A stretch of 64,000 nt of DNA from NCBI GenBank assembly GCA_001801025.1, contig MGWO01000002.1:248001-312000 (forward strand). Reading direction: 5' to 3'. A model generated the notes under the pieces. The model searched no databases. It was not told the origin of the DNA and was given only the letters and a program-made list of their open reading frames with translations. The number at the start of each line of letters is the position of its first letter. The first letter of the stretch is position 1. Source of the stretch: Gallionellales bacterium GWA2_54_124 (GTDB taxonomy: Bacteria > Pseudomonadota > Gammaproteobacteria > Burkholderiales > Gallionellaceae). A program made the position numbers and the translations under genes. Shown here one piece after another: positions 30,303 through 46,275 of this stretch.

Positions 30303-33300
30303 ATGCAACCTACATCAGAACAGATGTTGCAGCGGGCAGTGGCGTACCAGCAGGCCGGCGAATATCAGGACGCCGAACGTTACTATCTGACGATTTTGCA
30401 GGCTGATCCTCATCACCCTGAAGCAAATCACAATGCGGGTGTCATGGCCGTGCAGATGAAGCAACCGGCTCTCGGGCTGTCTTATTTGTTGACCGCACTG
30501 GAAGCTGATCCCGGTCGCGCGCAATACTGGATCAGTTATATTGATGCGCTGTTGCAGTCAGGGAATAGGGACGAGGCGCAGCAGGTGCTCTCCATTGCGA
30601 TGCAGCAGGGGTTGCAAGGTGACGAAGTCGACGCACTGGCGCAGCAATTGGCAGGCGTGCCGTCAGATAATGGGGGGGCGACATCGGCGCATCCGAGTCG
30701 TGCACAGATCGATCATCTGGTGATGCTGTTCGGTCAGCATCGCTATGCAGAGGCTGCCGGGTTGGCACGGCAGATGACAGAGCGCTATCCGGCGCACGAA
30801 TTTGGCTGGAAGGCGCTGGGCGCCGCTTTAAAACAGCTGGGGCATACTGAGGATGCGCTGGCTGCTATGCTGCGCTCCGTTGAGATATCGCCTGATGATG
30901 TCGAGGCGCATTACAATTTGGGTGTTGTGCTTCAGGAGGCGCACAGGTTAGAGGAGGCAGAACTTAGTTACCGCAGCGCGATAGCACTTAATGCGGCTTA
31001 TGCTGATGCTCATTGCAATCTTGGCGTGGTCCTTCAGGAATTAGGGCGAGGGAGGGAGGCCGAGGCTTGTTACCGGCGGGCGATACAGATTAATCCCCGT
31101 TATGCGGCGGCTTACAGCAATCTTGCGAATACGCTGATGGCCTCGGCGGAGCTCCCCGAGGCGGAAAATTGCTGCCGGCGAGCGCTTGAGATTAATCCGG
31201 AGGCCGCAGATGCGCACAGTACGCTTGGGCATATCCTAGAAAAACAGGGAAATTTGGCTGAGGCGGAAGCCAGTTTCCGGCGCGCGTTGCAAATCAGTCC
31301 GGATTCTGCCGTCGATTTCAGTCATCTGGGCAGCGTGCTTAAAGCTGAGGGGCGTATGCAAGAGGCGAGTGACTGTTATCACCGTGCGTTGCAGATCAAT
31401 CCGGGTTATGCCGATGCGCATTACAATCTTGCGACACTGTTCAAAGAGCAGGGGTGCCTGGATGAGGCTGAACGCAGCTACCGGCAGGCACTGCTGTTCA
31501 ATCCGGACTTCGTTCATGCACATTACAATCTGGCGAACGTTCTGCTCAGTCAATCCCGTTTAACGGAAGCGGAGTCGGGTTATCGCGAGGCTATCCGGTT
31601 GAAACCTGATTTTGCCGAAGCGCATAATAATTTGGGCATCGCGCTCAGAGCGCTGGGGCGGCCGGACGAGGCGAAGGCCAGTTACCTTGATGCGATACGC
31701 ATCCAGCGCGATTATGCCGAGGCGCACAGCAATCTGGGGATTACCCTGCACGAATTGGGGCGCTCATCTGACGCGGCGCAGCACATAAAACAAGCGTTGC
31801 TGATCTGCCCTATGCTGGCTGAAGCGCATTGCAATCTGGGTAATGTCCTGCTGGGTGTCGGACGTCAGGCGGAGGCGCAGGCCAGTTACAGGCGCGCATT
31901 GCAGTGTGATCCTGATTTCGCCGAGGCACACAGCAATCTGATTTTTACCATGGATCTGGCGGTGGGCAGTGATGCCGCGATACAGCAGCAAGAACGAAAA
32001 AACTGGGATGCTGCGCACGCGGCGCATTTGTATCAGCAGCGGAATTTTTCGAATCAACGTGATCCGGATAAACGGCTGCGCATAGGGTATGTTTCCGCTG
32101 ACTTCAGAGTGCATTCTGCCGCCTATGCGTTTGGTGCGATGCTGACGAGATTTTCTCCTGATGCCTTTGAGGTCGTTGCCTATTCGAATTCGAATCGTGA
32201 AGATGCGATGACGCAGCGGTTCCAGCAGCACGTGACGTTGTGGCGCAAGATTATCGGCATGTCGGATGAGGCGGTTGTCGATATGATCCTCGCAGATGGT
32301 ATCGATATTCTGGTTGATTTGTCAGGCCACTCCTCGGGCAACCGTTTGCTCGTGTTTGCCCGAAAGCCAGCGCCCATACAGATTACGGCCTGGGGATATG
32401 CATCGGGGACCGGGCTGCGGGCAATGGATGTATTGCTTTCAGATGCAATCTTTGTGCCGCCAGAGGAAGCGCCTTTATACGCAGAGCAGGTCAGGTATCT
32501 GCCCTGTGCAATCAGTTATTTTTCCCCGGATATCGCACCGGATGTGAGTCGCTTGCCGGCCTTATCCGGTCAGGGGGTTACTTTCGGCTCATACAACCGG
32601 CTGGCCAAAAATTCTGAAGCGGCTTACCGCGCCTGGGCGAAGATATTGCGAGCGGTGCCGGATAGCCGGATGATCTTTAAAACGCCTGTGCTCGATGATG
32701 TGGCGGTGCAAGATCAGGTGAGGGCGTACTTTACCCGTGCCGGTGTTGCGGCTGAGCGCATCATCCTGCTGGGGAAGTCGCCTCACGAAGAGCATATGGC
32801 TGCGTTTAATCAGATCGATATCTCGTTGGATCCTTTTCCTCACGGCGGAGGTGTGTCAGCCCTCGAAGGCTTAATGATGGGCGTGCCTGTGGTAACGCTG
32901 AACTGGCCGAGTCTGGCCGGGCGGATTTCAGCCTCGATCATGACGACGCTTGCGATGCCGGACTGGATTGCAGGTTCAGAGGATGAATATGTGCAGCTTG
33001 CGATTCAAAAAGCCACGGATATTCCCTCCTTGTCAGTATTGCGTGGTCAACTGCGCGGGCGATTTATGACGTCTGTGATCGGTGATCAGGCAGCTTATGT
33101 ACGATATGTTGAGCGTGAGTACCGCCAGTTATGGCGGGAGTGGTGCGTTATTAATCCTGTGGGCTTGGCAGAAAAAAAAAGCAATCTGAATGTAGATGAA
33201 GCCGGCGGTTTACCTGACGCCTTACCTGTTGCAAGTGTATCTGCCGATATATCACAGCCCTCTGATCTGGCAGTGAAGGCCTTGCTGCGTCATTTTTCTG

Positions 33301-35228
33301 ACGCTTCGCAGAATGATGCATGGATGCTTGCACAGGAAATGACGAAAAATTTTCCGTCGTATGGTTTGGGTTGGCTGGTGACGGGAGCGATATTAAGGCA
33401 GCGTGGGCAATATGTTGATGCCCTGACTGCAATGCAAAAGGCGGCTGTGCTGTTGCCGGATGATGTTGCTGCCATAAATAATTTAGGGCTCGCATTGCAC
33501 GATATGGGGCGCTTAGTCGAGGCGGAGGCCACGTTTAGACGAGCTTTGGCGATGAATCCGGATTTTGCAGAGGCCTATGGTAATTTAGGCAATACGCTGC
33601 ATACCCTCGGCAGGGTATCTGATGCGGAAGACTGTTATCAGCGTGCAATACGGATTAAGCCGGATTTTGCCGATGCCTATAATAATTTATCGATCACCCT
33701 CAAGGGGGTAGGGCGGCTCGTCGAGGCAGAGGGGGCTTGCCGGCGCGCGCTGGAAATCAACCCGGGCTTTGCTGAGGCGTTCAGCAACTTAGGATTTATA
33801 CTCAAAGAGCAATGGCGTCTGGGTGAAGCTGAAGAGAACATTCAGCTGGCACTGTCGATCAATTCAAATTGTGTAGAAGCGCATTGCAATCTCGCCGCTA
33901 CCCGGCTTGAGTCGGGTAAATGTGTCGAGGCGGAAGCGAGCCTTAGGCATGCTTTGCAGCTTAGACCATACGATGCAACGCTGCATAGCAATCTGATTTT
34001 TACGCTGGATTTGATGTCCGCGGAAAGTACCGCTTCGCTGCAAAAGGAGCGCAGGCTATGGAATGCCTTGCATGCGGCTCATTTGCCAAGGTACGAGTTG
34101 CATCGAAATATACCAAGTCCTGAGCGACGGTTACGCGTCGCTTATATCTCCGCTGATTTTAGAACACATTCTGCCGCCTATGCATTTACCTCGATGCTGC
34201 TTGATTTCGATCGCAAGCAGTTTGAGGTGATCGCTTATTCGAATTCAAAAAATGAAGACAAACTGACTGAGACTTTTAAGAAAAGTGTGACGTTATGGCG
34301 GAATATCGCCGGTTTGCCGGACGATGAGGTTGCTGATCTGATTCGGCAAGATGAGGTTGATATTCTGGTAGATCTTTCAGGACATACGGCTGGCAACCGG
34401 TTGCTGGTGTTCGCGAGGAAACCAGCTCCCATTCAGATCACGGCGTTTGGTTATGCAGCCGGCACGGGTATGGAGGCGATGGATGTACTCCTCGCTGACG
34501 AGATATTCGTTCCCCGGGATGAAGTGCCGTTGTATGCTGAACGTGTGAGGTACTTGCCTTGTGCGGTCAGTATGTTTGTATCAGACGATATGCCCGCGCC
34601 GGATACCTTGCCTGCACTGTCGGGCGGCGGGATTACGTTTGGTTCATTTAACCGGTTAGTGAAACTATCGGGGCAAACTTATCTTGCATGGGCTGAGATA
34701 TTGCGGGCGCTGCCGGACAGCAGGCTGATACTTAAAACACATGCGCTCGATGATGCCGGGACGAGGGGGCGTGTAAGCGAGCATTTTATTCGCGCGGGCA
34801 TCGATCCCAGCCGGATTATCTTGCTTGGAAAGACATCGCGCGAAGCCCAGCTTGCGGCTTTTAATCGTGTCGATATCGCACTCGATACGTTTCCGCATGG
34901 TGGTGGTATGACCACGTTGGAAGGTCTGGTGATGGGGGTGCCGGTTGTAACGTTACGCTGGCCGACATTGACGGGGCGTGTGTCAGCATCGATTCTGACG
35001 ACACTGGGGATGCAGGACTGGATTGCCGAATCACAGGACGAATATGTAAAACTTGCGATTAAAAAAGCAGCGGATCTGCAGTTGTTGTCTGTATTACGCG
35101 GGCAATTGCGCGGGCGCTTTATGTCTTCGGTGATCGGAGATCAGGCGGCCTATGTGCGTTGTGTCGAGCGTGAATACCGCCTGTTATGGCGGGAGTGGTG
35201 CGCAAAATACGGCGACCAGACGCTCTGA
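30303..35228 (+). CDS. Giant fused glycosyltransferase: TPR-GT41-TPR-GT41
   Basis: A single uninterrupted 1641-residue protein contains two complete OGT-like units. Unit 1 has the shared N-terminal module (1-130), about twelve TPRs (165-555) and a GT41 domain (about 590-950, DFRVHSAAYAF, DPFPHGGGVSALEG). A Ser/Ala/Asp-rich linker (about 955-1000) leads to unit 2, with about seven TPRs (1000-1240) and a second GT41 domain (about 1275-1641, DFRTHSAAYAF, DTFPHGGGMTTLEG). Unit 2 lacks the N-terminal module, consistent with in-frame fusion of adjacent paralogs by recombination. Both catalytic motifs look intact, including the FGSYNRLAK and FGSFNRLVK lysines. The protein may glycosylate two sites processively. 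It is the last gene of the island and abuts a convergent GGDEF gene by 18 bases. Confidence 0.9.
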   Translation: MQPTSEQMLQRAVAYQQAGEYQDAERYYLTILQADPHHPEANHNAGVMAVQMKQPALGLSYLLTALEADPGRAQYWISYIDALLQSGNRDEAQQVLSIAMQQGLQGDEVDALAQQLAGVPSDNGGATSAHPSRAQIDHLVMLFGQHRYAEAAGLARQMTERYPAHEFGWKALGAALKQLGHTEDALAAMLRSVEISPDDVEAHYNLGVVLQEAHRLEEAELSYRSAIALNAAYADAHCNLGVVLQELGRGREAEACYRRAIQINPRYAAAYSNLANTLMASAELPEAENCCRRALEINPEAADAHSTLGHILEKQGNLAEAEASFRRALQISPDSAVDFSHLGSVLKAEGRMQEASDCYHRALQINPGYADAHYNLATLFKEQGCLDEAERSYRQALLFNPDFVHAHYNLANVLLSQSRLTEAESGYREAIRLKPDFAEAHNNLGIALRALGRPDEAKASYLDAIRIQRDYAEAHSNLGITLHELGRSSDAAQHIKQALLICPMLAEAHCNLGNVLLGVGRQAEAQASYRRALQCDPDFAEAHSNLIFTMDLAVGSDAAIQQQERKNWDAAHAAHLYQQRNFSNQRDPDKRLRIGYVSADFRVHSAAYAFGAMLTRFSPDAFEVVAYSNSNREDAMTQRFQQHVTLWRKIIGMSDEAVVDMILADGIDILVDLSGHSSGNRLLVFARKPAPIQITAWGYASGTGLRAMDVLLSDAIFVPPEEAPLYAEQVRYLPCAISYFSPDIAPDVSRLPALSGQGVTFGSYNRLAKNSEAAYRAWAKILRAVPDSRMIFKTPVLDDVAVQDQVRAYFTRAGVAAERIILLGKSPHEEHMAAFNQIDISLDPFPHGGGVSALEGLMMGVPVVTLNWPSLAGRISASIMTTLAMPDWIAGSEDEYVQLAIQKATDIPSLSVLRGQLRGRFMTSVIGDQAAYVRYVEREYRQLWREWCVINPVGLAEKKSNLNVDEAGGLPDALPVASVSADISQPSDLAVKALLRHFSDASQNDAWMLAQEMTKNFPSYGLGWLVTGAILRQRGQYVDALTAMQKAAVLLPDDVAAINNLGLALHDMGRLVEAEATFRRALAMNPDFAEAYGNLGNTLHTLGRVSDAEDCYQRAIRIKPDFADAYNNLSITLKGVGRLVEAEGACRRALEINPGFAEAFSNLGFILKEQWRLGEAEENIQLALSINSNCVEAHCNLAATRLESGKCVEAEASLRHALQLRPYDATLHSNLIFTLDLMSAESTASLQKERRLWNALHAAHLPRYELHRNIPSPERRLRVAYISADFRTHSAAYAFTSMLLDFDRKQFEVIAYSNSKNEDKLTETFKKSVTLWRNIAGLPDDEVADLIRQDEVDILVDLSGHTAGNRLLVFARKPAPIQITAFGYAAGTGMEAMDVLLADEIFVPRDEVPLYAERVRYLPCAVSMFVSDDMPAPDTLPALSGGGITFGSFNRLVKLSGQTYLAWAEILRALPDSRLILKTHALDDAGTRGRVSEHFIRAGIDPSRIILLGKTSREAQLAAFNRVDIALDTFPHGGGMTTLEGLVMGVPVVTLRWPTLTGRVSASILTTLGMQDWIAESQDEYVKLAIKKAADLQLLSVLRGQLRGRFMSSVIGDQAAYVRCVEREYRLLWREWCAKYGDQTL

Positions 35229-35246: not shown

Positions 35247-37046
35247 TTAGCTGGCAACCACGACGCGATTTTTACCGGTCTGTTTGGCCTGATACATCGC
35301 TTTATCCGCACGCCCAATCAGTTCTTCCTGCGATTCATCAGTACCCAATTGCGCGACCCCTGCACTGAAGGTGACGAGGATACGGTCGTTTTCATGCATG
35401 AAGAACTGTTTGGTGAGTTCCCTTTGCAGGCGTTCCACTGTTAACGCAGCTTCTGCCAGCGTGATATCGGGGAGGATCAGCACGAATTCCTCCCCGCCGT
35501 AACGGGCGACTGAGTCAGAGGGGCGCAGTGCTTCTTTGATGACGTGGCACAGATGAAGCAGCGCCTTGTCACCTACTTGATGACCCATGGTGTCGTTCAG
35601 GCGTTTGAAGTTGTCGATATCCAGCAGCGCAACGCACAGCGATTCGTGGCTGCGCTCCACGCGGCGGCTCTCGCGATCAAAGGCCGCATCTAAGCCGCGC
35701 CGGTTCAATGCACCGGTCAGCTGATCCTGATGAACCAGTTCGCTCACTTCGGACAGTTCCTTTTCCAGCTTAGAAATTTTTTCTTCCGCGCTTTCGACCT
35801 GTTTGCGCGAATCGAGCAACTCCTCATGCGATTTAAGCGCGCTAGCCTGTATTACCCGGGTGTCTTGCATGATGTCGTCGAGTAAGTGCCCAAGATCATT
35901 CAGGTTGCTCGATTGCGCGATTTTCTCGCTGTAACCTGCTATCTTCTGATGATAGTCGCCGGTGCTGACCGTGATGATGCCCAGACGGTCAATAAAGGTC
36001 GTCATTAAGCTCTTGAGTGTCGATTTCGCATCAATCAGGCTCTTTTTGAGCAGTCCTTGTTTAATGATGGCTTCGCGCAGACTGCGCTCGGCATCTGCGA
36101 TCACATATTTATCGATCGGATTTTCGATGATGGTGTGCAGTGCGTTTACCTGACCGTGCAGCCAATCCTCGTCTTCGACCATTTCTCCAACGTTTTCAAC
36201 CAAAAGACGCAGCAGGCGCACCAGACCTTCCTGGATTCTGGATTTGTCACTGCCGCGCAATTCAACCTTCAGCCAGAAGCTGCGCAGATCCTTGGCAAGC
36301 TCTGCAATCTGGTCGCAGGTTTTGATCTGGCGAACTTGTGCGCTGAGCAGGCCGACTTCCTCTGCGAGTTCCGGTTGTGCGCTAAGCGTACCCTCCAGCG
36401 CGTGTGCGAGCAGCTCTTTGAGTTTTTCGAGCATTTCTGCTGCCTGATTTTTGATGGACGAGAGATCTGAAGCCGCGGATTTTGGTTCCGTCGTTTGGGC
36501 AGTTGCCGGTGGCAACGCAGGATGTACCGCGCTCGATTCTGGATTTTCAATCAGGCTGTCAGTGATCGCAGATTCCGACCATGAGCGGATCAGCTTGCCT
36601 AACTTTTCAAACAGGATGTCAGGATCGGATGTAAAGCGTGCTAATACGGTTTCCAGACTTTCCTTTTTGCGCGAAACGGTCAGGCCTTTGTGCGGCAGGT
36701 CAATTTGTCGCAATAAATCGCGGATTAAAACCGGCCAGGTTTGTTCGGGTGCATCGCTCTTATGTGTCTTGGGAAGTACCTTTTCAATTTCCTCGAAGCA
36801 TTTGTCCCAGTTTTCTTCGCCCAGCCTTTTTTTCAAGGCGAGTCCGGTACCGGCGGCCTTGTCGGTTTGCAGCAAATGTTCGACGACATTGCGCAAAACT
36901 TTTGCAGCACCGTTCACCTCGATGGCGGGCTCGCCGCTGATCTCAGTAAAAATTTTTGCATAATTGTCAGGGGTGGGCATGAGCCTGCGTTGAGCCAGCA
37001 TTTTTAGGGTTTCGCGGGCAACTTCTGACGGATTTTGCTTATTCAT
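35247..37046 (-). CDS. GGDEF diguanylate cyclase with a long helical N-terminus
   Basis: The 599-residue product makes cyclic di-GMP from two GTP. The C-terminal GGDEF domain (about 435-599) has the active motif GGEEF at 517-521 and an RxxD inhibitory site five residues before it, so product inhibition is expected. The first 430 residues are largely helical or coiled coil, with no clear sensor domain and no membrane segment. It is convergent with the glycosylation island and separated from the downstream response regulator by 85 bases. Cyclic di-GMP typically controls flagellar motility versus attachment, which fits the neighbouring flagellar genes; that role is inferred. Confidence 0.9.
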   Translation of the reverse strand: MNKQNPSEVARETLKMLAQRRLMPTPDNYAKIFTEISGEPAIEVNGAAKVLRNVVEHLLQTDKAAGTGLALKKRLGEENWDKCFEEIEKVLPKTHKSDAPEQTWPVLIRDLLRQIDLPHKGLTVSRKKESLETVLARFTSDPDILFEKLGKLIRSWSESAITDSLIENPESSAVHPALPPATAQTTEPKSAASDLSSIKNQAAEMLEKLKELLAHALEGTLSAQPELAEEVGLLSAQVRQIKTCDQIAELAKDLRSFWLKVELRGSDKSRIQEGLVRLLRLLVENVGEMVEDEDWLHGQVNALHTIIENPIDKYVIADAERSLREAIIKQGLLKKSLIDAKSTLKSLMTTFIDRLGIITVSTGDYHQKIAGYSEKIAQSSNLNDLGHLLDDIMQDTRVIQASALKSHEELLDSRKQVESAEEKISKLEKELSEVSELVHQDQLTGALNRRGLDAAFDRESRRVERSHESLCVALLDIDNFKRLNDTMGHQVGDKALLHLCHVIKEALRPSDSVARYGGEEFVLILPDITLAEAALTVERLQRELTKQFFMHENDRILVTFSAGVAQLGTDESQEELIGRADKAMYQAKQTGKNRVVVAS

Positions 37047-37131: not shown

Positions 37132-37773
37132 CTAATCCTGAAGTTCGACTAAACGATGGGTAATCGCATAGTGGATCGCTTCGGCATTGTTGGTGAACGT
37201 CATTTTCGCCAGCATCCGGCTGCGATAGACGCTGACCGTTTTGGGGCTGAGCGCCATAATCTGTGAGATTTCACTCAATGTTTTACCCGAGGCCATCAGG
37301 CACAGCGTTTGGTATTCGCGGTTCGACAGATTTTGGTGCATCAGTTCTTGTGATTCGCCGATCAGATTGTTCAGCAGTTGTTCGGCCAGTATTTCGCTGA
37401 TATATTTTTTCCCGCCCAGCACATGGTGAATCGCTTTGATCAGGACATCAGATGCACTTTGCTTGTTGATGTAACCCATTGCGCCCGCCTTGAGAGCGCG
37501 CACACCATACTGGTCTTCGGGATACATGCTTAAAATTATAATTTTGAGCTGAGGTTGTTCAGATTTAAATTGTTTGAGCACTTCGATGCCGTGCTTGTCA
37601 GGCAGATTGATGTCCAGCAGCATTAAATCAAAATGTGCTGCGCGCAGCATGCTGATGGCTTCTGTTCCGCTGGATGCCTCTCCCGTTATTTTCAGGTCCG
37701 GCGTATCCTCCAGCAGTTGCTTAAGCCCTTTGCGGATTAAAGCGTGATCATCGACGACAAGAATCTGGATCAT
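37132..37773 (-). CDS. NarL/FixJ-type response regulator
   Basis: The 213-residue product has a receiver domain (MIQILVVDDH, acidic pair at 8-9; phospho-acceptor Asp54 in LMLLDINLPD; a conserved Lys in YINKQS) and a C-terminal LuxR/GerE helix-turn-helix (NLSNREYQTLCLMASGKTLSEI, then SPKTVSVYRSRM). It is a DNA-binding transcription factor switched by a HisKA_3-type kinase. A kinase of exactly that type lies on the same strand at 45070-46275, with 7.3 kb of other genes in between. The ATG at 37773 is preferred to a TTG five codons upstream. Confidence 0.92.
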   Translation of the reverse strand: MIQILVVDDHALIRKGLKQLLEDTPDLKITGEASSGTEAISMLRAAHFDLMLLDINLPDKHGIEVLKQFKSEQPQLKIIILSMYPEDQYGVRALKAGAMGYINKQSASDVLIKAIHHVLGGKKYISEILAEQLLNNLIGESQELMHQNLSNREYQTLCLMASGKTLSEISQIMALSPKTVSVYRSRMLAKMTFTNNAEAIHYAITHRLVELQD

Positions 37774-38052
37774 ATCGTTATTGAACAAGGCATTTGTTGA
37801 TTTGAGTGTGGCGGGCAGACTTTCAATCTTGATTTTCCTTAAGCCGGAAGGTTCGTGTAATTGGATTTACACTGCTTGAGAGCCGATATGTTAAACACGT
37901 TTACTGTATTTAGAGGATTCTACTGCAAAACAATTTATAATTTCACGATTTAGGTTAATTATGTGGTTTTACGCCGGTGAGTTGCGGATTATGCGTATAC
38001 CGGCTATGTCGCATATTCTTTACGTAAGGCCGTATCTGTTAAGCTTCAATTT
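37774..38052. other. Divergent intergenic region between response regulator and Ser/Thr kinase
   Basis: About 280 bases without a gene. A TTTATAATTT stretch at 37934-37943 looks like a -10 element for the downstream kinase gene, but I find no matching -35 at the right spacing. The region is AT-richer than its flanks around 37890-37970. No repeat, tRNA or hairpin of note was seen. Confidence 0.4.
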
Positions 38053-39753
38053 ATGAACAATCTAGAAATGTTGGGTAAATATCGCATCGTCGGCGAGCTC
38101 GGTAGGGGGGCGATGGGTATTGTTTATGAGGCCTTTGATACGCTGATTGAGCGTACGGTCGCCATTAAAACGATACTGAAATCCGGTATACAGGCTGATG
38201 AGGCGGAGGATGTTTTTAACCGTTTTCGCAGCGAAGCGAGGGCTGCGGGCCGTCTGGCTCACCCGAAAATCATCTCCATTTATGAGTATGGCGAAAATGA
38301 GGAAATGGCGTATATCGTCATGGAACTGGTTCGCGGTCGGGAATTAAGCGACTATTTCGATCATGGCAGACGGATGTCGCTAGGCGCCGGACTGCGCATT
38401 GTGGTGCAATTACTCGATGCACTTGAATATTTGCATGCGCACGGTATTGTTCATCGCGACATCAAGCCTGCGAATATCATGATAACGGCTGAGGGCGACG
38501 TCAAAATTGCGGATTTTGGTATCGCCAAGATTGATGCATCGGGGCATACCCAGGTGGGTGTGGTGCTGGGAACGCCTACTTATATGGCACCTGAACAATT
38601 TATGGGGCACGATGTTGATCATCGCGCCGATCTGTATGCGGCGGGTGTTATTCTGTATCTGATGCTCACAGGCGAACGTCCCTTCGTCGGCAGCGTCATC
38701 GCGATCATGCATCAGGCGGTGCATCGCGATGCGACGCCACCCTCCCAGCTCAACCCGCTTGTGACAAAACAGCTCGATGCCGTGGTGAGTCGAGCAATGG
38801 CAAAGCGCGCGGAAGATCGCTTTCAGAGTGCAAATAAGTTTTTGAAAGCCCTCAAAGTGGCGGCTTTGAGCTTGCCTGAGACTGAGCAGGAGACGGATCG
38901 TTCAGTAGACTCATCTGAGGTCTTTTCGCCTGATGAGACGCTGGAACTGCCGGGTGAGGGGCGCTCCACAGGTACCTGGCGAGAAGCCGATATTGCCGAG
39001 TGGCAGCGTATTTCCCATAGTAAAAATCCTGATGACTTCAGGGATTACTTAAAGGAGTTCGCTGATGGCGGTTTCGTTACGCTTGCGATGTCGCGCATTG
39101 AAATGCTGGAGAAGGCAGCGCTACGAGCCAGACAGGAGGCGCAGGCCGCAGAATTAAAAGCGCGCGCCGAGGCACAGGCCGAACTTGAAGCCCGTCAGAA
39201 ACAGGATGCGGAGACCAAGGCGCTGTTGGCATTAAAAATTGCTCAGATTAAAAACGAAGCGGAAGCGTCGCGTGTGGAAGACGCGATCAGACGCGAAAAA
39301 GAAGCTGCAGAGCAGGCAGAGCGGGCACGTACGCTCTCCGCTACGCTATCTTTGCATGCAGAAAAGCGTGCCGGAGTCGTGTTAAGTCGGGAGGCTAGCA
39401 GCGATGCTGAGCGTCAAATGAAAATCGAGGAAAAGCGTCGCTTAGAAGAAGAAGTGCGGCGCAGACGTCAGGCCCGTCAGCAGATGCTGTCTGCGCGCGA
39501 GTCCGCCGAACATAAAGCCGAGGCGGCTGCGGCGGCTCAGCGTGAGCGTACAGCGGCAGAGTTGATGGCGCGTAACCGCGAGGTGGAAGAGGCGAGGGCG
39601 CAGGCAGAAACGGCCAATCGTCTTAGGCTGGAAGTGGAGGAAAAGGCAGCTTTGGAACAGAAGAGAACAGGTATCAAAATGTTGATTATCGGTATCTTTC
39701 TGGTGTTTATGCTGATTGGAATTATCTTCGGTCTGTTGCCTTCGTCAAAGTGA
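38053..39753 (+). CDS. Membrane-anchored Ser/Thr protein kinase with long coiled coil
   Basis: The 566-residue product is a bacterial Hanks-type kinase (about 9-275). It has a glycine loop GELGRGAMG, catalytic VAIK Lys39, HRDIKPANIM near residue 134, DFGIAK near 154 and GTPTYMAPEQ. All catalytic residues are present. Residues about 340-535 are a very charged Ala/Glu/Arg/Lys coiled coil, and one membrane helix closes the protein (MLIIGIFLVFMLIGIIFGL). There is no PASTA domain. The convergent neighbour encodes an FHA protein, a phosphothreonine reader, 8 bases away. The Zorya-like genes follow, so kinase, reader and membrane motor may be one signalling set; this is inference. Confidence 0.92.
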   Translation: MNNLEMLGKYRIVGELGRGAMGIVYEAFDTLIERTVAIKTILKSGIQADEAEDVFNRFRSEARAAGRLAHPKIISIYEYGENEEMAYIVMELVRGRELSDYFDHGRRMSLGAGLRIVVQLLDALEYLHAHGIVHRDIKPANIMITAEGDVKIADFGIAKIDASGHTQVGVVLGTPTYMAPEQFMGHDVDHRADLYAAGVILYLMLTGERPFVGSVIAIMHQAVHRDATPPSQLNPLVTKQLDAVVSRAMAKRAEDRFQSANKFLKALKVAALSLPETEQETDRSVDSSEVFSPDETLELPGEGRSTGTWREADIAEWQRISHSKNPDDFRDYLKEFADGGFVTLAMSRIEMLEKAALRARQEAQAAELKARAEAQAELEARQKQDAETKALLALKIAQIKNEAEASRVEDAIRREKEAAEQAERARTLSATLSLHAEKRAGVVLSREASSDAERQMKIEEKRRLEEEVRRRRQARQQMLSARESAEHKAEAAAAAQRERTAAELMARNREVEEARAQAETANRLRLEVEEKAALEQKRTGIKMLIIGIFLVFMLIGIIFGLLPSSK

Positions 39754-39761
39754 GGTATGAC

Positions 39762-40661
39762 TTACAGGCCGTTTGTAATCGAAAATGCGATAAATTCGTT
39801 GGGATTTTTTTTGTAGGGATGTCCCAGACTGATGGTGCCTGATTCGCGCAGCACCATTTCTTCACGCCGTAACTGAATTTCACCTTCGCCGTTGATGGTT
39901 ACATAGGTTCCGTTTGAGCTTAGATCGACCAGAATAAACTTGTCGCGTCGTCGCTCAATCTTTGCGTGCATACGAGATGCGCTGCGATTCTTCGTGACGA
40001 TATCAGCGGTCTCATCGCGACCGATTGTGATGGAGGGCTGAGTGGCATTGACGATAAATGCTTCGCGCAGATGGGTCAGCTGTAAAACGGGTTCGCAATC
40101 CTGAGTGGTGTAGGTATTGCCGACCATCATGGTCAGATCTTCACTCTCGTGCCAGATAACCTCGCGTACTTCGATATCATCGGCCTTGCCTTTGATTGAT
40201 AAGCTGCTGAGTGTGCGGGTGCCGGTGCGCATGATGGGCGGAAACAGCGCGACGGTAGCTCCGGTTGTGATGATTTGCTGCGCCTGAGCAATTTCTGCCA
40301 TGCGAGCGGCGATGTTGACTGTGTCACCGAAGATATCCCCGTCGTTCTCCAGTACAGGACCGTAGTGAAAGCCGATGCGAATGAAAACGTGAATGCCGTC
40401 AATCGGTGGCTTTGCGCTCACCACCATCTGCATTTCGCAGGCGGCCTGTGCTGCCGAAACCGGGTCGGGGAAAACTGCCATAATTTCGTCGCCTATCGTT
40501 TTGACGACACGGCCGGCATGCGCCAGTGTGAGGCTGCGCAACACACTCAGGCAGCGGTCAATGGCTGCGAATGCGCGTGCGTCCCCGAGAACCTCATACA
40601 AGCGCGTACTGCCGCTCACGTCGGCAAACAGTACTGCATTCTCCTGTTGGGTTGTGTTCAC
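39762..40661 (-). CDS. Class III adenylyl cyclase fused to an FHA domain
   Basis: The 299-residue product has an N-terminal class III cyclase domain (about 8-170) with metal-binding Asp14 (LFADVSGSTR) and Asp58 (KTIGDEIMAVF), and the FGDTVNIAARM segment with transition-state Asn116 and Arg120. Lys54 suggests ATP over GTP. The C-terminal FHA domain (about 205-280) has SITIGRDE, SRMHAKI and LVDLSSNGTYV, with the Arg, Ser and Asn residues that bind phosphothreonine. I start at GTG 40661 because a TATAAT -10 element lies 30 bases upstream and the longer frame would begin inside the divergent gene. Expected product: cAMP, under control of a phosphoprotein partner. Confidence 0.9.
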   Translation of the reverse strand: MNTTQQENAVLFADVSGSTRLYEVLGDARAFAAIDRCLSVLRSLTLAHAGRVVKTIGDEIMAVFPDPVSAAQAACEMQMVVSAKPPIDGIHVFIRIGFHYGPVLENDGDIFGDTVNIAARMAEIAQAQQIITTGATVALFPPIMRTGTRTLSSLSIKGKADDIEVREVIWHESEDLTMMVGNTYTTQDCEPVLQLTHLREAFIVNATQPSITIGRDETADIVTKNRSASRMHAKIERRRDKFILVDLSSNGTYVTINGEGEIQLRREEMVLRESGTISLGHPYKKNPNEFIAFSITNGL

Positions 40662-40691
40662 TATTGCAATTCCGATTGAATCAAGCTTCCC

Positions 40692-40697
40692 ATTATA
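40692..40697 (-). promoter_or_regulatory. -10 element for the cyclase-FHA gene
   Basis: On the minus strand the sequence reads CCTTTATAATGGG, a perfect TATAAT. A -35 match at 17 bases is poor. The transcript would start near 40685, giving a short leader before GTG 40661. The rest of the 147-base divergent gap (40662-40808) shows CATAAT at 40766-40771 as a weak -10 candidate for zorA. Confidence 0.5.
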
Positions 40698-40808
40698 AAG
40701 GGTGTTGATGAAAATGAATGGTATGAATTTAAGCAAATCGCATACCCAGATGATAGAACTTCCGTCATAATTCTCGCGCCCGGCAGGCGGGTTTTTCTGT
40801 AAATTAAA

Positions 40809-42746
40809 ATGATGACATTCACCGCGCTTCCCCAGCATATTTATATTTTTGCCGCCATACTCGGTGTGCTGCTGATTTCATTCGTGTTTTTTTCCATGCT
40901 CCCCGCTTTTATCGTTTCGCGGCGTTTGTCTGGAATCATTAAAAGACTGCGCGAGTTGAACGGCAAACCTGATGGCAGTCTGGAGAAAATATTTCAGAAA
41001 ACGGGTGTGCTTGAGCATTTGTGGTATGAGTATTCAGATTCGTTGCATCAGCAGCTCGATGAGAAGCAGCCGCAGGCGATACGTTTTCGCTCCACGCTGC
41101 CCGCCAGCGTGGTGTTCAGGCCGGATATCGTTGTGGATATTCCGTTGCGCTCGGATTTTTTCAAACATTTGCCGGGGTTGTTCACCGGGGTCGGGATCAT
41201 CGGGACTTTCTACGGTCTGTTGATCGGCATGCAGTCGTTCGTGGTTTCCGAAAATCCGGTTGTGGTGCGCGCAAGTTTGACGCGCCTGTTACACGGTGTC
41301 TCCGAAGCGTTTTTGGTGTCTGCATCCGCCATTACACTGGCCATGATCGTCACCTTTGTTGAAAAATTAGTGGTGTCGAGCCTGAATGCGAAAGTCGAAA
41401 AACTGATTCAATTGCTCGATGGATTGTTTGAAGGGGGGGCCGGCGAAGAATATCTTGCGCGCCTCGTCCGCGCCTCCGAAGCTTCCGCCGGGCAATCATT
41501 GCTCAAGGGCGATCTAAAGGAAATGCTCACTGAACTCAGTGAAAAGCAAATCGCGGCAAACAACGCAGGTGTTGCGGCATTGGGAGAGCAGATTTCTCGT
41601 AGCATTGAAGTGGGCTTGAAGGGCCCCTTGTCTGAAATTGCCCAGGCGCTGAAAGCGACGCACGATGAGCCTGCGCTACAGACGATGCTAAGTGGTATGT
41701 TTGACAACTTTAACCGGCAAATGAAAGAGTTGTTCGGCGGTCAGGCAAATGATATGAACAGCTTGCAGAAGCAGACGATTGATGCCCTGAGCGCAACGGT
41801 TGCAAGGCTGGAAGCGATGGCGACGGAAGCGGGGGCTGCAGGCCAGCGCAGCATGGAGGCGATTGCCGAGCAACTGGGACGATCGAGCGCTGCGGCAGAA
41901 TCGCGTCAGGCTTTGATGAATGAAAAGTTGGCTGAGTTTATCGGACAAATGCGCGAGGCGGCCAGCCAGACTCAGTCCGAATCAAAGGGGCAATTGCAGC
42001 AATCACTGAGCGAACTGTCAGTGCGTATGGGTGCGTTGATAGACGGCTTGGGTACGCAGGTGCGTTCAGTAACCGATGTTAGTCGTCAGAACCAGCTTGA
42101 GATGGAGCAGCAGGGCAAACAGATGGTCAGTCAGTTCGGCGGGCAAATCGAGGCGGTGGTCGAAGGTGTGACCGAGGCTGTTGCCGAGATGAAATCGGCC
42201 GTGACCGTGATGCAGGCGACGACGAAAGATGCCCTGTCGGCGCTGGGCGGCAGCGCGGATACCCTGTATTTGGCGAGTCAGGATTTTGCACGTGCTGGTC
42301 AGTTGGTGAACGCAACGATGGAAAAATCAGCCGCGGTGGCCAATCAGTTGCTTGAGGCCGCAGAGACGGTGTCGACCGCCGCCAGCGGCTTGGGCGATTT
42401 GTTTGCCGATTACAAGACATCGCGCGATGCGATGATTGCGCAGATGCAGACCTTGCAATTGCTGGCAGAGCAGGTGCGACGCGATGCTTCTATGTCAGGC
42501 GAGGTGTTTGAGAAGATTGAGTCGGCCACAGGCAAGCTGGTTGCGGCGCAAATGGACGCGGACCAGTATTTGTCCAGAATATCGGATGTGATTGGCCTTG
42601 CTCATCAGTCATTCAGCGATGGAATGACGCGCGCTGTGGGTGAGGCAAACCGTGAGTTTCATCAGGCCTTGTCAGACTCAGTCAAGCTGTTGCGTGAGGG
42701 AATTCATGAACTGGAGAGTACGCTCGATGCGGCCACCAATGTTTAA
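40809..42746 (+). CDS. zorA: ZorA-like MotA/TolQ-family proton-channel protein with long tail
   Basis: The 645-residue product has three membrane segments (about 10-33, 121-143, 162-187). The second reads LPGLFTGVGIIGTFYGLL, the pattern of ZorA proteins of the anti-phage Zorya system and of the MotA/TolQ/ExbB stator family. Residues about 195-645 form a long helical cytoplasmic tail rich in Ala, Gln, Ser and Glu, as in ZorA, where the tail transmits motor rotation or membrane sensing. It does not look like flagellar MotA, which is about 290 residues and has no such tail. zorB follows after 12 bases. ATG codons at 40809 and 40812 are both possible. Confidence 0.85.
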   Translation: MMTFTALPQHIYIFAAILGVLLISFVFFSMLPAFIVSRRLSGIIKRLRELNGKPDGSLEKIFQKTGVLEHLWYEYSDSLHQQLDEKQPQAIRFRSTLPASVVFRPDIVVDIPLRSDFFKHLPGLFTGVGIIGTFYGLLIGMQSFVVSENPVVVRASLTRLLHGVSEAFLVSASAITLAMIVTFVEKLVVSSLNAKVEKLIQLLDGLFEGGAGEEYLARLVRASEASAGQSLLKGDLKEMLTELSEKQIAANNAGVAALGEQISRSIEVGLKGPLSEIAQALKATHDEPALQTMLSGMFDNFNRQMKELFGGQANDMNSLQKQTIDALSATVARLEAMATEAGAAGQRSMEAIAEQLGRSSAAAESRQALMNEKLAEFIGQMREAASQTQSESKGQLQQSLSELSVRMGALIDGLGTQVRSVTDVSRQNQLEMEQQGKQMVSQFGGQIEAVVEGVTEAVAEMKSAVTVMQATTKDALSALGGSADTLYLASQDFARAGQLVNATMEKSAAVANQLLEAAETVSTAASGLGDLFADYKTSRDAMIAQMQTLQLLAEQVRRDASMSGEVFEKIESATGKLVAAQMDADQYLSRISDVIGLAHQSFSDGMTRAVGEANREFHQALSDSVKLLREGIHELESTLDAATNV

Positions 42747-42758
42747 GGCGGCGATGTC

Positions 42759-43475
42759 ATGATCAATAAATACCTGCTTTTGGGGCGACGCAACAAGGAA
42801 GAGGGTGAAAAACCGTTCTGGATTTCATTCGCCGACCTGATGACGGCGCTGATGGTGATGTTTTTGCTGGTGATGAGCGTCGCGCTATTGGCTGTCACCG
42901 ATCAGGTCTCGTCGGCGGATCGCAATAAAATTCAGCGTGAGCAGGAAATTGATCAGCTGCTGGGAAAAATTGCCAAGGCGGCTGAAAAATACCCTGGAAT
43001 TTTTGTCGATAAAAATCGCGCGGTGATCGATTTTGGCGACCGCGCCCGCTTTGATACCGGCAGTTCAACCTTGTCTGCTGAACAGGCGCAGTATCTGAGC
43101 CTTTTTGTATCCGAAATGCTGGTCGTGGCCAAGGATCAGCTGGGCCGTAAATGGCTCAAGCGCATTATTGCAGAGGGGTATGCCGATCAGCGGGGCGATT
43201 ACCTACTGAATCTGAATTTGAGTTTGCAGCGCAGTCAGCGCGTGTTGTGCGCACTGCTGTCACCGCCTGTTAATCAGACATTCATGCTGACGCCAGAGGA
43301 AAAGGAACGCGTGCGCGATTATTTTCTGGTGGGTGGTTATTCATTCAATTCGGCCAAAAAATCCCTGGAGGAGAGTCGTCGTATTGAATTACGTCTGGAG
43401 TTTTTCGGTCAGGATGAGGAGCATCCGGTCATGAACGATATTACCCGCGGGAATTTTGGCAGTTGCAGAATCTAA
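42759..43475 (+). CDS. zorB: ZorB-like MotB/OmpA-family stator protein
   Basis: The 238-residue product has one N-terminal membrane helix (about 24-46, FADLMTALMVMFLLVMSVAL) with Asp26, the position of the proton-carrying Asp in MotB-type stators and ZorB. A periplasmic OmpA-like peptidoglycan-binding domain follows (about 85-225: FDTGSSTLSAEQ, IIAEGYADQRGDYLLNLNLS, RRIELRLEF). With the preceding gene it should form a proton-driven ZorAB complex fixed to the cell wall. It is shorter than typical MotB and lies next to an EH-signature gene, which supports ZorB over a flagellar stator. AAGG lies about 12 bases before the ATG. Confidence 0.87.
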   Translation: MINKYLLLGRRNKEEGEKPFWISFADLMTALMVMFLLVMSVALLAVTDQVSSADRNKIQREQEIDQLLGKIAKAAEKYPGIFVDKNRAVIDFGDRARFDTGSSTLSAEQAQYLSLFVSEMLVVAKDQLGRKWLKRIIAEGYADQRGDYLLNLNLSLQRSQRVLCALLSPPVNQTFMLTPEEKERVRDYFLVGGYSFNSAKKSLEESRRIELRLEFFGQDEEHPVMNDITRGNFGSCRI

Positions 43476-43476
43476 A

Positions 43477-45060
43477 ATGGATGCGCTTGAGAAATTGCAG
43501 GGCAAGCTGCTGGCGATAAATACCACTTCGCTGTCACGGCTGCGTCCGGGTGATTCGTTGCAGATGCAGCATGAATTTTCGATGATGCAAGACTGGGTTA
43601 AAGGCGCATCGCGGCGGGAGGATGTGCCTCTGGCGACGATAGAAGCGGCTTTGCTTTTCTATCAGAAAAACAACTATATAAAGGGGTTGCGTCAGGCGAG
43701 GTTGATTTGTTATGGCTGTACCCAGCGGCTCAATTCATATTGTCTGATTGAAGAGCGCGATGCGTTCAATCAATTACTCAGTTATGTCGATGGTTACAAG
43801 TCGCGCCGGCGCACCTTTCGCAAGCTTTATCGCGGTCTGCTGAGCAGCTATTTTTCCTATGATCCTGATTCGGCTGGCATGCGCGGTGGCGTCAGCCGGG
43901 ACGTATTGAGAGCCTTTTTAAGCGATCATCTGGCAACGTTTGTGATTGGGGATTTTACACCGGACTGGCTAGCTGCACTGGCCAAGTATCCTGATTTGCT
44001 CGGGGAAAATCCGGGGCAGGCAGTTGAGTCGTCCTTGCTGCAAGGCGATGGCTCAATGCTCGAAGAAATTCGCGAACGGCTAGGTGTGGATGGCGGTTCC
44101 TGGCTTGTGCGCCGACTGGTGATGTCGCCGTTTGTCGCCATTGGACGTATGCCGGATGCTGAGTTTAAGGATCATCTGGCGAGCCTGTTGCTGTTGCTGA
44201 ATGATTATCCTCTGTATGCCAGTGCCGCACTTCCGCTGCTGCTCGAGCGTTATGTGCAGTGCAAGGACAGACCTGTGCATGCGCAGATGAGAGATTATGC
44301 CGTCGGACTTTGGGGTAACCCGTGGCGGGCGCAGCAGCAATGGTTATGCAGCGACAAGGCTCGTTTGATGCTCTCGCACTGGCTTAAGCGGCAGTTGCTC
44401 AGTGAGTTTTTCAGTTTGCTGTCGAACGATGATAAAGCGTTGTCGCGACGCTTTAATTTTTGGGATCTGTATAGCGAAGATTTGACGGGCATGTATTTCG
44501 CGCTGGGCAAAGATGCTTATGTGCAGGGGAATATGCGGCTTTATAAATTCAGGCATCTGGCAAAAGGGCTGATCGCTAAGCTCACTGAAGAGAAGCACGG
44601 CGTGCATACCTGCATCATGCAGTTTTCCCATCATCACGTGGTTGAGTTCAACCGCGAAAAAAATATCGCTTATTTTTATGATGTTCGTCAGGGAACGCCT
44701 TCATTTTATTTTGCCAAGGGGTGGGTCGATATTGGTGCAATCGGCGTCACTGCGATCGAAAAAGGGGCGGATATTGCCCGTACATCCAAACCGTTACGGC
44801 ATGAAGATACTAAACTTTCGACTTGGGAGGCGTGTTTCGCCGAGGAGTTGGGCGAGACCGAGAATGCCCTGCGGGCGTTCTGTATCAAGTATCAGTGTGA
44901 GTATGAGGACAGGCGCGGCACAGAGGGCAGTCAGTGTATACGCCCCGCGGATTGTGACCGGTATGGAATCGAGGTATGGTCAGTGTTGAAGGGTTGGGGG
45001 TATGACTTCTCGCCAGCACAAAAGATGTGGTATCGACTGACGTACCCCAAGCTCAGTTGA
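43477..45060 (+). CDS. zorC: ZorC-like EH-signature domain protein
   Basis: The 527-residue product matches the EH_Signature family to which ZorC belongs. The C-terminal part has the expected Glu in MQFSHHHVVEFNREKN (Glu390) and a His in LRHEDTKLSTWEACF (His442), with RRFNFWDLY before them. The first 280 residues are helical. In Zorya type I, ZorC works with ZorAB and binds DNA while ZorD degrades it. Here no ZorD or ZorE gene follows; the next gene is a convergent histidine kinase 9 bases on. The ATG at 43477 lies one base after zorB; a TTG at 43456 inside zorB is an alternative. Confidence 0.8.
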   Translation: MDALEKLQGKLLAINTTSLSRLRPGDSLQMQHEFSMMQDWVKGASRREDVPLATIEAALLFYQKNNYIKGLRQARLICYGCTQRLNSYCLIEERDAFNQLLSYVDGYKSRRRTFRKLYRGLLSSYFSYDPDSAGMRGGVSRDVLRAFLSDHLATFVIGDFTPDWLAALAKYPDLLGENPGQAVESSLLQGDGSMLEEIRERLGVDGGSWLVRRLVMSPFVAIGRMPDAEFKDHLASLLLLLNDYPLYASAALPLLLERYVQCKDRPVHAQMRDYAVGLWGNPWRAQQQWLCSDKARLMLSHWLKRQLLSEFFSLLSNDDKALSRRFNFWDLYSEDLTGMYFALGKDAYVQGNMRLYKFRHLAKGLIAKLTEEKHGVHTCIMQFSHHHVVEFNREKNIAYFYDVRQGTPSFYFAKGWVDIGAIGVTAIEKGADIARTSKPLRHEDTKLSTWEACFAEELGETENALRAFCIKYQCEYEDRRGTEGSQCIRPADCDRYGIEVWSVLKGWGYDFSPAQKMWYRLTYPKLS

Positions 45061-45069
45061 GGTGGCGGG

Positions 45070-46275
45070 CTAACTCTGTCCGTCTTTCGGCAGGCGCACG
45101 GCAATTTTGGTTCCTTTGCTGGGGCGGCTGGTAATTGACAGCGTCCCGTCGAGTTGTCTGATGCGCTCCTGAATGCCGCGTAAGCCAAATGAGCGCGGTT
45201 TGTTGCGCGCCGCCTCATCAAATCCGCAGCCATCGTCCGAGACGATAAGCTCAACGTATTGGTCGATTTGATCTGTCCCGGATTGACATATTTTCACTTG
45301 CACGCGTCTGGCTTGTGCGTGTTTCATGATGTTGTTCAGCGTTTCCTGAAATACCCGGAACAGCGTAATGGATTGTTCGTCTGATACATCGAGATTGTCG
45401 CTTGATTTAATTATTTTGCAGGGGATGGTGGTGCGTTTGGTAAATTCGGCGGCTTCGATTTCGATGGCGGCAACGATGCCAAAGCAATCCAGAGACCCGG
45501 GGCGTAAACTGTGTACCAGATTGTTGGCGGCTATTCCTGCTGTGTCGAGCAGGTTGGCCATGACCTGTGATTTTTCCTGCAGCGCCCCGTCATCGGCCGG
45601 GAAACGTTGCCTCATCCACGCCAGATCCATCTTTAATGCAGTCAGCAGCACGCCTATTTCATCGTGAATTTCCCGGGCAATGCGTGTGCGTTCTTCTTCC
45701 TTGATGTTTTCAATATGTGACGATAGTTCGCGCAGTTGTTGTCTTGAATGCAGAAGCTCAATTTCAGCCTGTTTGTTTTGCGTGATATTGACGACAAACC
45801 CTTTCCAGTGCGTGCCGAGTAGATCGGTTTTCCGGTATTTAGCACGCAGGTTAACCCACTTGATTTCTCCGTCGGGTGGCAAGAGGGTGCGGCCCTCCCA
45901 GTTCCACGGGGTGGCGTGTCGGGCTGAGTGTTGCATGCTCTGGTGAAACGAGGCTGCATCGTCGGCATGCAGGTACTTAATGAGGCGTTCGGGGTGATGT
46001 TTTAGCTCGGTGGCGCTGAGTCCTAGCAGGTCGAAGCATCCTTCGCTGACGTAGGGGAGGTGCAGTTTTCCTTGTGTGTCTAATCGTATCTGACAAGCCA
46101 TACCGGGCAAACTGTCCAGAAAAGAATAGGGGGTGTGATCCGGGGTTTCTTCAACAGTTTTGAGCGGGTCTTGTGTGTGTCGTGCAGCTGTCACAGCGGC
46201 TTCGTTGTGAACAGAGGGGGCAAGGGTTGCATTACGTTTTTTCGCTTGTTTAATATGTAAGCGGTTTGCCGGCAT
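45070..46275 (-). CDS. PAS-containing NarL-family histidine kinase
   Basis: The 401-residue product has one PAS-like sensor domain (about 50-170), the HisKA_3 dimerisation segment EEERTRIAREIHDEIG with phospho-acceptor His204, and a HATPase domain with FQETLNNIMKHA (N box), SDDGCGF and GLRGIQERI. There is no membrane helix, so it senses a cytoplasmic signal. Its expected partner is a NarL/FixJ regulator; the one at 37132-37773, on the same strand, is the only one in the window. The stop is 9 bases from the convergent zorC stop and the start is 160 bases from thrS. Confidence 0.92.
   Translation of the reverse strand: MPANRLHIKQAKKRNATLAPSVHNEAAVTAARHTQDPLKTVEETPDHTPYSFLDSLPGMACQIRLDTQGKLHLPYVSEGCFDLLGLSATELKHHPERLIKYLHADDAASFHQSMQHSARHATPWNWEGRTLLPPDGEIKWVNLRAKYRKTDLLGTHWKGFVVNITQNKQAEIELLHSRQQLRELSSHIENIKEEERTRIAREIHDEIGVLLTALKMDLAWMRQRFPADDGALQEKSQVMANLLDTAGIAANNLVHSLRPGSLDCFGIVAAIEIEAAEFTKRTTIPCKIIKSSDNLDVSDEQSITLFRVFQETLNNIMKHAQARRVQVKICQSGTDQIDQYVELIVSDDGCGFDEAARNKPRSFGLRGIQERIRQLDGTLSITSRPSKGTKIAVRLPKDGQS

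Follow-up and report, generated by a model that had tools for sequence, protein, structure and literature searches.

In published Zorya systems of types I and II, the output is a nuclease. Type I couples ZorA, ZorB and ZorC to ZorD, a helicase with an Mrr-like nuclease, type II consists of ZorA-ZorB-ZorE, in which ZorE is an HNH nuclease, and type III of ZorA-ZorB-ZorF-ZorG, in which ZorF is a DUF3348 and ZorG a DUF2894 protein. Sections of PMC11890865 describe ZorAB as a 5:2 ion-driven motor that needs peptidoglycan binding by ZorB and the tail of ZorA, and that is thought to recruit ZorCD or ZorE, and the part of PMC8565338 that deals with type III shows that the outputs can be swapped. We analysed a 64,000-nucleotide stretch of DNA (the window: positions 248,001 to 312,000 of contig MGWO01000002.1) from Gallionellales bacterium GWA2_54_124 of the iron-oxidising Gallionella group, with a genome of 2.9 Mb whose relatives carry the names Gallionella, Sideroxydans and Candidatus Ferrigenium in their records. 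Five genes there encode a Ser/Thr kinase, a nucleotide cyclase with an FHA domain (cyclase-FHA), ZorA, ZorB and ZorC; they are flanked on one side by a response regulator gene and on the other by that of a histidine kinase adjacent to thrS. On balance, the comparisons below tip slightly in favour of a module derived from type I Zorya, in which the ZorD output would have been replaced by kinase and cyclic AMP (cAMP) signalling in the manner proposed further on.

The original prediction, made from the letters of the window, had recognised zorA, zorB and zorC in that order, and all three genes are present at the positions it gave. They run in the same direction, with 12 bases between zorA and zorB and one between zorB and zorC. 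Window proteins were compared with the PADLOC, Pfam and NCBIfam profile sets and with the sequences of PDB structures. ZorA (40,809..42,746, forward strand), a MotA/TolQ/ExbB-like stator subunit with a long cytoplasmic tail, matched the PADLOC ZorA1 model PDLC00598 with 691 bits over residues 2-642, against 38 bits for the best ZorA2 model, and the PDB ZorA 8qyd with an E-value of 1e-72; its match to Pfam MotA_ExbB (18.2 bits) lies below the cut-off of 22.9. ZorB (42,759..43,475, forward strand), a MotB/OmpA-like subunit, matched the PADLOC ZorB1 model PDLC00611 (334 bits; best ZorB3 model, 24 bits) and 8qyd_F (E = 7e-48), its match to Pfam OmpA (24.0 bits) being just under the cut-off of 27.2. 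ZorC (43,477..45,060, forward strand, 527 residues) is an EH_Signature protein (PF15611, 269 bits, cut-off 27.5) that also matched PADLOC ZorC (339 bits) and the PDB ZorC 8r68 (E = 8e-21); its best start is the ATG at 43,477 rather than the TTG at 43,456 of the longer open reading frame. The profile searches thus agree with the three earlier assignments, and the residues picked out by the prediction, Asp26 of ZorB and Glu390 and His442 of ZorC, are each invariant in 18/18 aligned rows. The ZorC numbers fit the ATG start because they count from 43,477. ZorA T133 and S171 are invariant in 20/20 rows. All three alignments contain the module rows; G033 was added for ZorA (A5) and ZorB (A2), G028 and G064 were left out of the latter since their starts are not resolved, and G083 was left out for ZorC (A1; here and below, G and L numbers denote genomes and loci). 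As the strict NCBIfam type I equivalog cut-offs are missed (ZorA1 316/750, ZorB1 223/400, ZorC 118/490), though that of the broader ZorA_3 subfamily is reached (307/250), we assign the window zorABC by sequence to a divergent branch of type I Zorya.

The likeness to type I is extensive: the three proteins are homologous along most of their length, stand in the same order and keep the key residues, and the tree described below places their clade among loci that bear ZorD. Two differences stand against it, namely the absence of ZorD, in whose place are the kinase and cyclase-FHA genes, and the portion of window ZorC beyond residue ~460-467, for which the best PADLOC ZorC model and 8r68 both give no match. 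Lacking ZorD, the module does not belong to type I as defined, but its mode of action is probably that of a Zorya whose output differs. With types II and III, the precedent in print for modular outputs, it shares a ZorAB pair joined to a different output gene set, but window ZorA falls in the type I models and an EH protein is present. A Pfam scan of eight window proteins around the locus gave no match to HNH, DUF3348 or DUF2894, a genome-wide search for ZorE not having been made, and neither zorF nor zorG lies beside zorAB, whose neighbours by adjacency are the kinase, cyclase, histidine kinase, response regulator and GGDEF genes. A variant combining a kinase or cyclase with zorABC was not reported in the titles or abstract openings listed by searches of open-access papers.

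As had been stated in the prediction, neither ZorD nor ZorE adjoins zorC. Its further suggestion that the effector might be encoded elsewhere is not supported in the case of ZorD. In one draw of 61 genomes of the genus, probed with the ZorD of G033 and with PADLOC PDLC00632, full-length ZorD was found by both probes in G033 only, at a different, classical locus, and it is absent from the source genome; an unlinked ZorD was rejected on this ground. Each probe matched 39/61 genomes, the other matches being parts of the SNF2 region, and PDLC00632, which also matched 7/14 control genomes, is non-specific below full length. An incomplete type I system that borrows a ZorD-like SNF2 enzyme from elsewhere in the genome is a far-fetched reading: G000 and G080 do carry an unlinked protein of ~1100 residues that matches the SNF2 core of ZorD, but a similar match occurs in 25/42 zorABC-negative as well as 14/19 zorABC-positive genomes, that of G000 covers only positions 714-1083 of 1101, and the single-contig genome G064, in which the module is present, has none.

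The partition between ZorD and the new partners extends well past the source genome. The best 80 of 156 ZorB relatives gave 80 named ZorB loci, which we scored with thresholds of at least 90 bits for ZorD, 350 bits for the kinase and 200 bits for the cyclase. ZorD without kinase or cyclase was present in 43/80, a kinase and/or cyclase without ZorD in 19/80, neither in 18/80, and both in 0/80; within the ZorD loci of this set, matches to the kinase or the cyclase did not exceed 50 bits. Ten of the 19 kinase/cyclase loci repeat genomes of the genus draw and nine are new. The linkage of these genes to zorABC is not peculiar to the source genome. Among the 18 loci with neither, six are from the Gallionella group and have their partners elsewhere or past a contig break (G003: kinase only); contig ends truncate L128, L135, L137 and L149, no ZorC match is present in L160, and L125, L126, L132, L145, L167, L174 and L178 have zorB and zorC with no partner in the flanks examined. 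On a ZorB+ZorC tree of 81 rows, whose root is a convenience, every kinase/cyclase locus belongs to a single 28-row clade supported by a Shimodaira-Hasegawa-like approximate likelihood ratio test (SH-aLRT) value of 98, the 28th row being L145; if the rows that have neither are left out, the two types, ZorD and kinase/cyclase, are one change apart. Adjacent to this clade are the Crenothrix loci, in which PADLOC recognises a ZorD fragment (219 bits), and beyond them comes a clade of zorABC-only loci. The simplest account would be the loss of ZorD and the gain of the kinase and cyclase in a type I ancestor. A zorABC core that has a kinase and a cyclase for company and no DNA-cutting partner hints at a motor for defence or stress whose output would be a chemical signal instead of DNA cleavage. 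Outside the genus, 0 of 24 genomes from other genera of the order had a ZorC of the window type, 369 genomes drawn across the class added a single ZorC (G316), next to which lies a ZorD match, and a contig scan with ZorC as query gave no match.

Within the genus draw, zorABC of the window kind occurs in 19/61 genomes, in addition to the one classical zorABCD (G033), which was counted among the 42 negatives. Orthologs of the kinase, defined by a whole-protein match or membership of the best-scoring group, were found in 17/19 zorABC-positive genomes and 0/42 others (17/19 against 7/42 when a related kinase is counted too), and those of cyclase-FHA, defined by at least 329 bits where the next group begins at 246, in 17/19 and 1/42, respectively. 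In G065 the kinase is missing, but the contig stops next to the cyclase; G003, a fragmented assembly, lacks the cyclase; and the cyclase match of G071 is in two pieces in different frames. G080, assembled as a single contig, has copies of the five genes that are 93-98% identical to those of the source genome. A species tree from five housekeeping proteins covered 53/61 genomes (G003, G005, G012, G013, G030, G032, G062 and G077 are not on it), and the distribution of zorABC on it is patchy, with at least ten changes. Eight independent contrasts, drawn as random pairings on this tree, gave eight changes in the same direction as zorABC and none opposite for the cyclase in most pairings (median p 0.008), and seven and none for the kinase (median p 0.016); with the seven related-kinase genomes scored as positive, the kinase contrasts average 5.8 same and 0 opposite (median p 0.03). 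The recurrence of kinase and cyclase-FHA with zorABC, which the prediction had proposed as its check, therefore holds within the genus and slightly beyond.

Gene order around zorABC is not fixed. Kinase-cyclase-zorABC is the order in the window and in eleven other loci (L103, L109-L111, L119-L122, L124, L129 and L168), L113 has kinase-zorABC-cyclase, and G064, L112 and L123 have zorABC-kinase-cyclase, with the kinase 3' of zorC on the same strand, in the slot that ZorD usually takes; the gap from zorC to the kinase is 45 bases in G064 and G082 and 47 in G068. In G011, G015 and G076 neither the kinase nor the cyclase shares a contig with zorABC, and zorA is preceded by at least 6 kb of unrelated DNA; in G004 and G071 the kinase is on a different contig. 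We count the retention of these genes after unlinking in favour of a functional tie. The zor contig of G003 ends just before zorA, and its linkage cannot be judged. A decayed or solo type I core, with the kinase and cyclase as linked travellers that have no functional tie to it, would fit a sister clade in which zorABC has neither partner (L125, L126, L128 and L132, of which L128 is cut by contig ends), as well as the several genomes in which the kinase stands beside a response regulator and a GGDEF gene and not beside zorABC, and the lack of a kinase in G031. We nevertheless hold it to be improbable, given neighbours that are rearranged yet retained, partners kept after unlinking, the independent contrasts and the residues conserved in all three Zor proteins.

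The Ser/Thr kinase (38,053..39,753, forward strand, 566 residues), which the prediction had placed upstream together with cyclase-FHA, matches PF00069 with 184 bits, its kinase domain spanning residues ~8-270. K39, H134-R135-D136 and D154-F155-G156 are invariant in 18/18 rows from 17 genomes. In a structure prediction that models the kinase domain itself poorly, residues 342-560 form a single helix of ~220 residues that runs into a hydrophobic segment at the C-terminus, a membrane segment read by eye that is likely a tail anchor. The best PADLOC kinase match, made in the comparison with the single-gene defence kinase PD-T4-6, reached 317 bits, but 36 PADLOC models match this protein, nearly all of those shown being kinases, and such matches are non-specific. 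G004 has two module-type kinases on separate contigs (L076 and L077), each beside its own response regulator and GGDEF gene.

The cyclase-FHA gene (39,762..40,661, reverse strand) is divergent from zorA and opposite in strand to the kinase and zorABC; its product, a class III nucleotide cyclase with a C-terminal FHA domain, matches PF00211 (60 bits) and PF00498 (50 bits). Its open reading frame is over-called at the 5' end, where it reaches 40,838. The relatives G078, G010 and G065 hold a stop in the upstream extension, and the start is likely the GTG at 40,661; these three genomes were omitted from the cyclase alignment (A4). Invariant in its 15/15 rows, numbered on the long reading frame, are D73, K113, D117, D168, N175 and R179, which we take by family to be the two metal aspartates, the Lys/Asp purine pair and the Asn/Arg pair, and G273-R274, S288 and N309, presumably the Gly-Arg, Ser and Asn positions conserved in FHA domains. 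A Lys/Asp purine-specifying pair is typical of adenylate cyclases, and the nearest solved cyclase structure is Ma1120. Both the kinase and the cyclase look intact. PycC of Pycsar is likewise a class III cyclase and gives a weak PADLOC match (31 bits, residues 66-184), but the window cyclase keeps the Lys/Asp pair and has an FHA domain, and a known Pycsar effector was not recognised beside it. The source genome has 15 matches to cyclic-nucleotide-binding domains, of which 14 are over cut-off.

From these intact catalytic residues we infer an output by phosphorylation or cAMP signalling, and we propose the following cascade. ZorA-ZorB would act as a proton-driven, peptidoglycan-tethered motor that senses disturbance of the envelope, phage entry being the precedent, and ZorC would dock on the ZorA tail as it does in type I. 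ZorD having been lost, its place would be taken by the tail-anchored kinase and the FHA-domain adenylate cyclase. Once the motor is turning, the tail of ZorA together with ZorC might activate the kinase, which could phosphorylate a threonine in its own chain or in ZorA or ZorC; this phosphothreonine would be bound by the FHA domain, and the cyclase would make cAMP, acting through the cyclic-nucleotide-binding proteins of the cell. A comparable pairing of a membrane Ser/Thr kinase with an FHA partner that responds to envelope events is that of the PpkA-PppA-Fha threonine phosphorylation pathway of type VI secretion. Here the FHA domain instead shares one protein with a cyclase, the kinase carries a hydrophobic tail at its C-terminus, and no type VI gene was recognised among the neighbours scanned. 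That the module represents a new Zorya output class, provisionally a signalling type, whose rotary, peptidoglycan-tethered motor turns the mechanical sensing of phage entry into a kinase-to-FHA-cyclase cascade with cAMP or phosphorylation in place of a nuclease, we consider a serious candidate with somewhat less than an even chance. A role in defence is supported by patchy presence and Zorya descent.

Several observations weigh against the replacement of ZorD by a signalling output in a defence module. In the sections of PMC11890865 that deal with type I, deletion of each component abolishes protection, and a figure legend there names a ZorABC plasmid as one of the subsets, significance being indicated for the complete system. 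Because L125, L126, L132, L167, L174 and L178 lack ZorD without having a kinase or cyclase, loss of ZorD alone does not imply a new output, and the zorABC of L145 belongs to the kinase/cyclase clade yet has neither partner in the flank examined. G031, which is 99% complete, has zorABC and the cyclase with no kinase ortholog, and G061 has the cyclase alone. Linked genes co-transfer, and part of the signal on the species tree could be linkage. Few defence genes surround the eight module loci inspected, whose housekeeping surroundings give no argument for defence. Finally, a resident kinase without Zor genes at the tyrS site is among the nearest relatives of the module kinase, with a kinase domain 64-72% identical to that of the G064 module kinase in the five compared (G032 not among them).

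These resident kinases lie between yqeY and tyrS in the Zor-negative G025, G007, G077, G026, G074 and G032, and are 67-74% identical to that of G025. The C-terminus differs from that of the module kinase in both that were fully read, G025 and G007. The rpoD-dnaG-yqeY/tyrS gap holds either a lone Ser/Thr kinase of ~600 residues (L190-L194, L211) or the whole module (L065-L067, L112), the latter in G064, G082 and G068. On a kinase tree whose outgroup consists of nine other kinases, the resident kinases group weakly with those of the module (59/72) and their order is not resolved, and so either direction is possible: a resident kinase may have been recruited into the module, or zorABC and the cyclase may have been lost around the kinase. 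The module kinases of all sources do not appear as one clade on this tree, whereas the 16 genus rows do (88/97). The G063 kinase was labelled with the resident set on this tree, but tyrS was not found in the stretch of that genome examined. The view of the module kinase as an ordinary Gallionella kinase was upheld in part only.

The insertion sites bear on the purpose of the module. At least two are used, the thrS site and the rpoD-dnaG-yqeY/tyrS site, and in another setting the module stands behind CTP synthase, a DAHP-family synthase and enolase. Such housekeeping sites, the absence of a nuclease gene and the retention of the module through a subclade of the genus would suit a domesticated sensor of envelope or cell-wall stress, signalling through the same kinase and cAMP and having no part in phage defence. 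This account is possible and we rate it as rather unlikely, for the at least ten changes on the 53-genome tree are a patchiness such as defence genes have, and the ancestry lies in type I Zorya. A clade in which ZorD is lacking throughout and the kinase and cyclase-FHA are found in almost every member would mark the ZorAB(C) motor as a general sensor with interchangeable outputs and would provide natural material in which sensing can be uncoupled from killing, and loss-of-function mutants of the kinase, the cyclase, the FHA domain and ZorB D26 would test how the motor talks to its effector.

The genes on either side are flanks and not parts of the module: a PAS histidine kinase (45,070..46,275, reverse strand; HisKA_3/HATPase_c), a LuxR-type response regulator (37,132..37,788, reverse strand; PF00072, PF00196) and a GGDEF protein (35,247..37,046, reverse strand; PF00990, 150 bits). 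The histidine kinase is convergent with zorC, as predicted, and adjoins thrS. Its proposed membership of the system was dropped: it is present in 13/19 zorABC-positive and 6/42 other genomes, but we exclude it because its contrasts do not track zorABC (on average 3.0 same and 0.2 opposite, not significant) and because the histidine kinase, response regulator and GGDEF genes are contiguous beside thrS in the zorABC-negative G001 and G014. The window module is inserted exactly between the histidine kinase and the response regulator; the former is a bystander, and the three flanking genes are the recipient operon split by the module. Further out, at 30,303-35,228, a protein of 1641 residues reads by eye as two tandem halves, each TPR plus O-GlcNAc-transferase-like.

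Other Zorya loci showed some peculiarities of their own. The sister clade L125, L126, L128 and L132 has a short ZorC of 475-477 residues; L125 and L126 are very similar though labelled Alistipes and Oxalobacter, and at least one of these labels is doubtful. In L174, L178 and L167, zorBC lies within ZorD-bearing clades with no ZorD match for at least 6.9 kb downstream, and these may be separate losses or replacements of ZorD. L160 (8297-15109) has zorA and zorB matches without zorC, followed by a protein of 842 residues with a TIR-like start (by eye). The classical zorABCD of G033 (L022:738-8823) is in the same genus as the module, and G033 is sister to the module-bearing G078 on the species tree. 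The Methylococcaceae loci L147, L148, L150, L151 and L152 are type I Zorya with a 2-3 kb gap between zorB and zorC, which in L148 contains a Sel1-like-repeat protein of 630 residues and a PIN-like open reading frame (both by eye).

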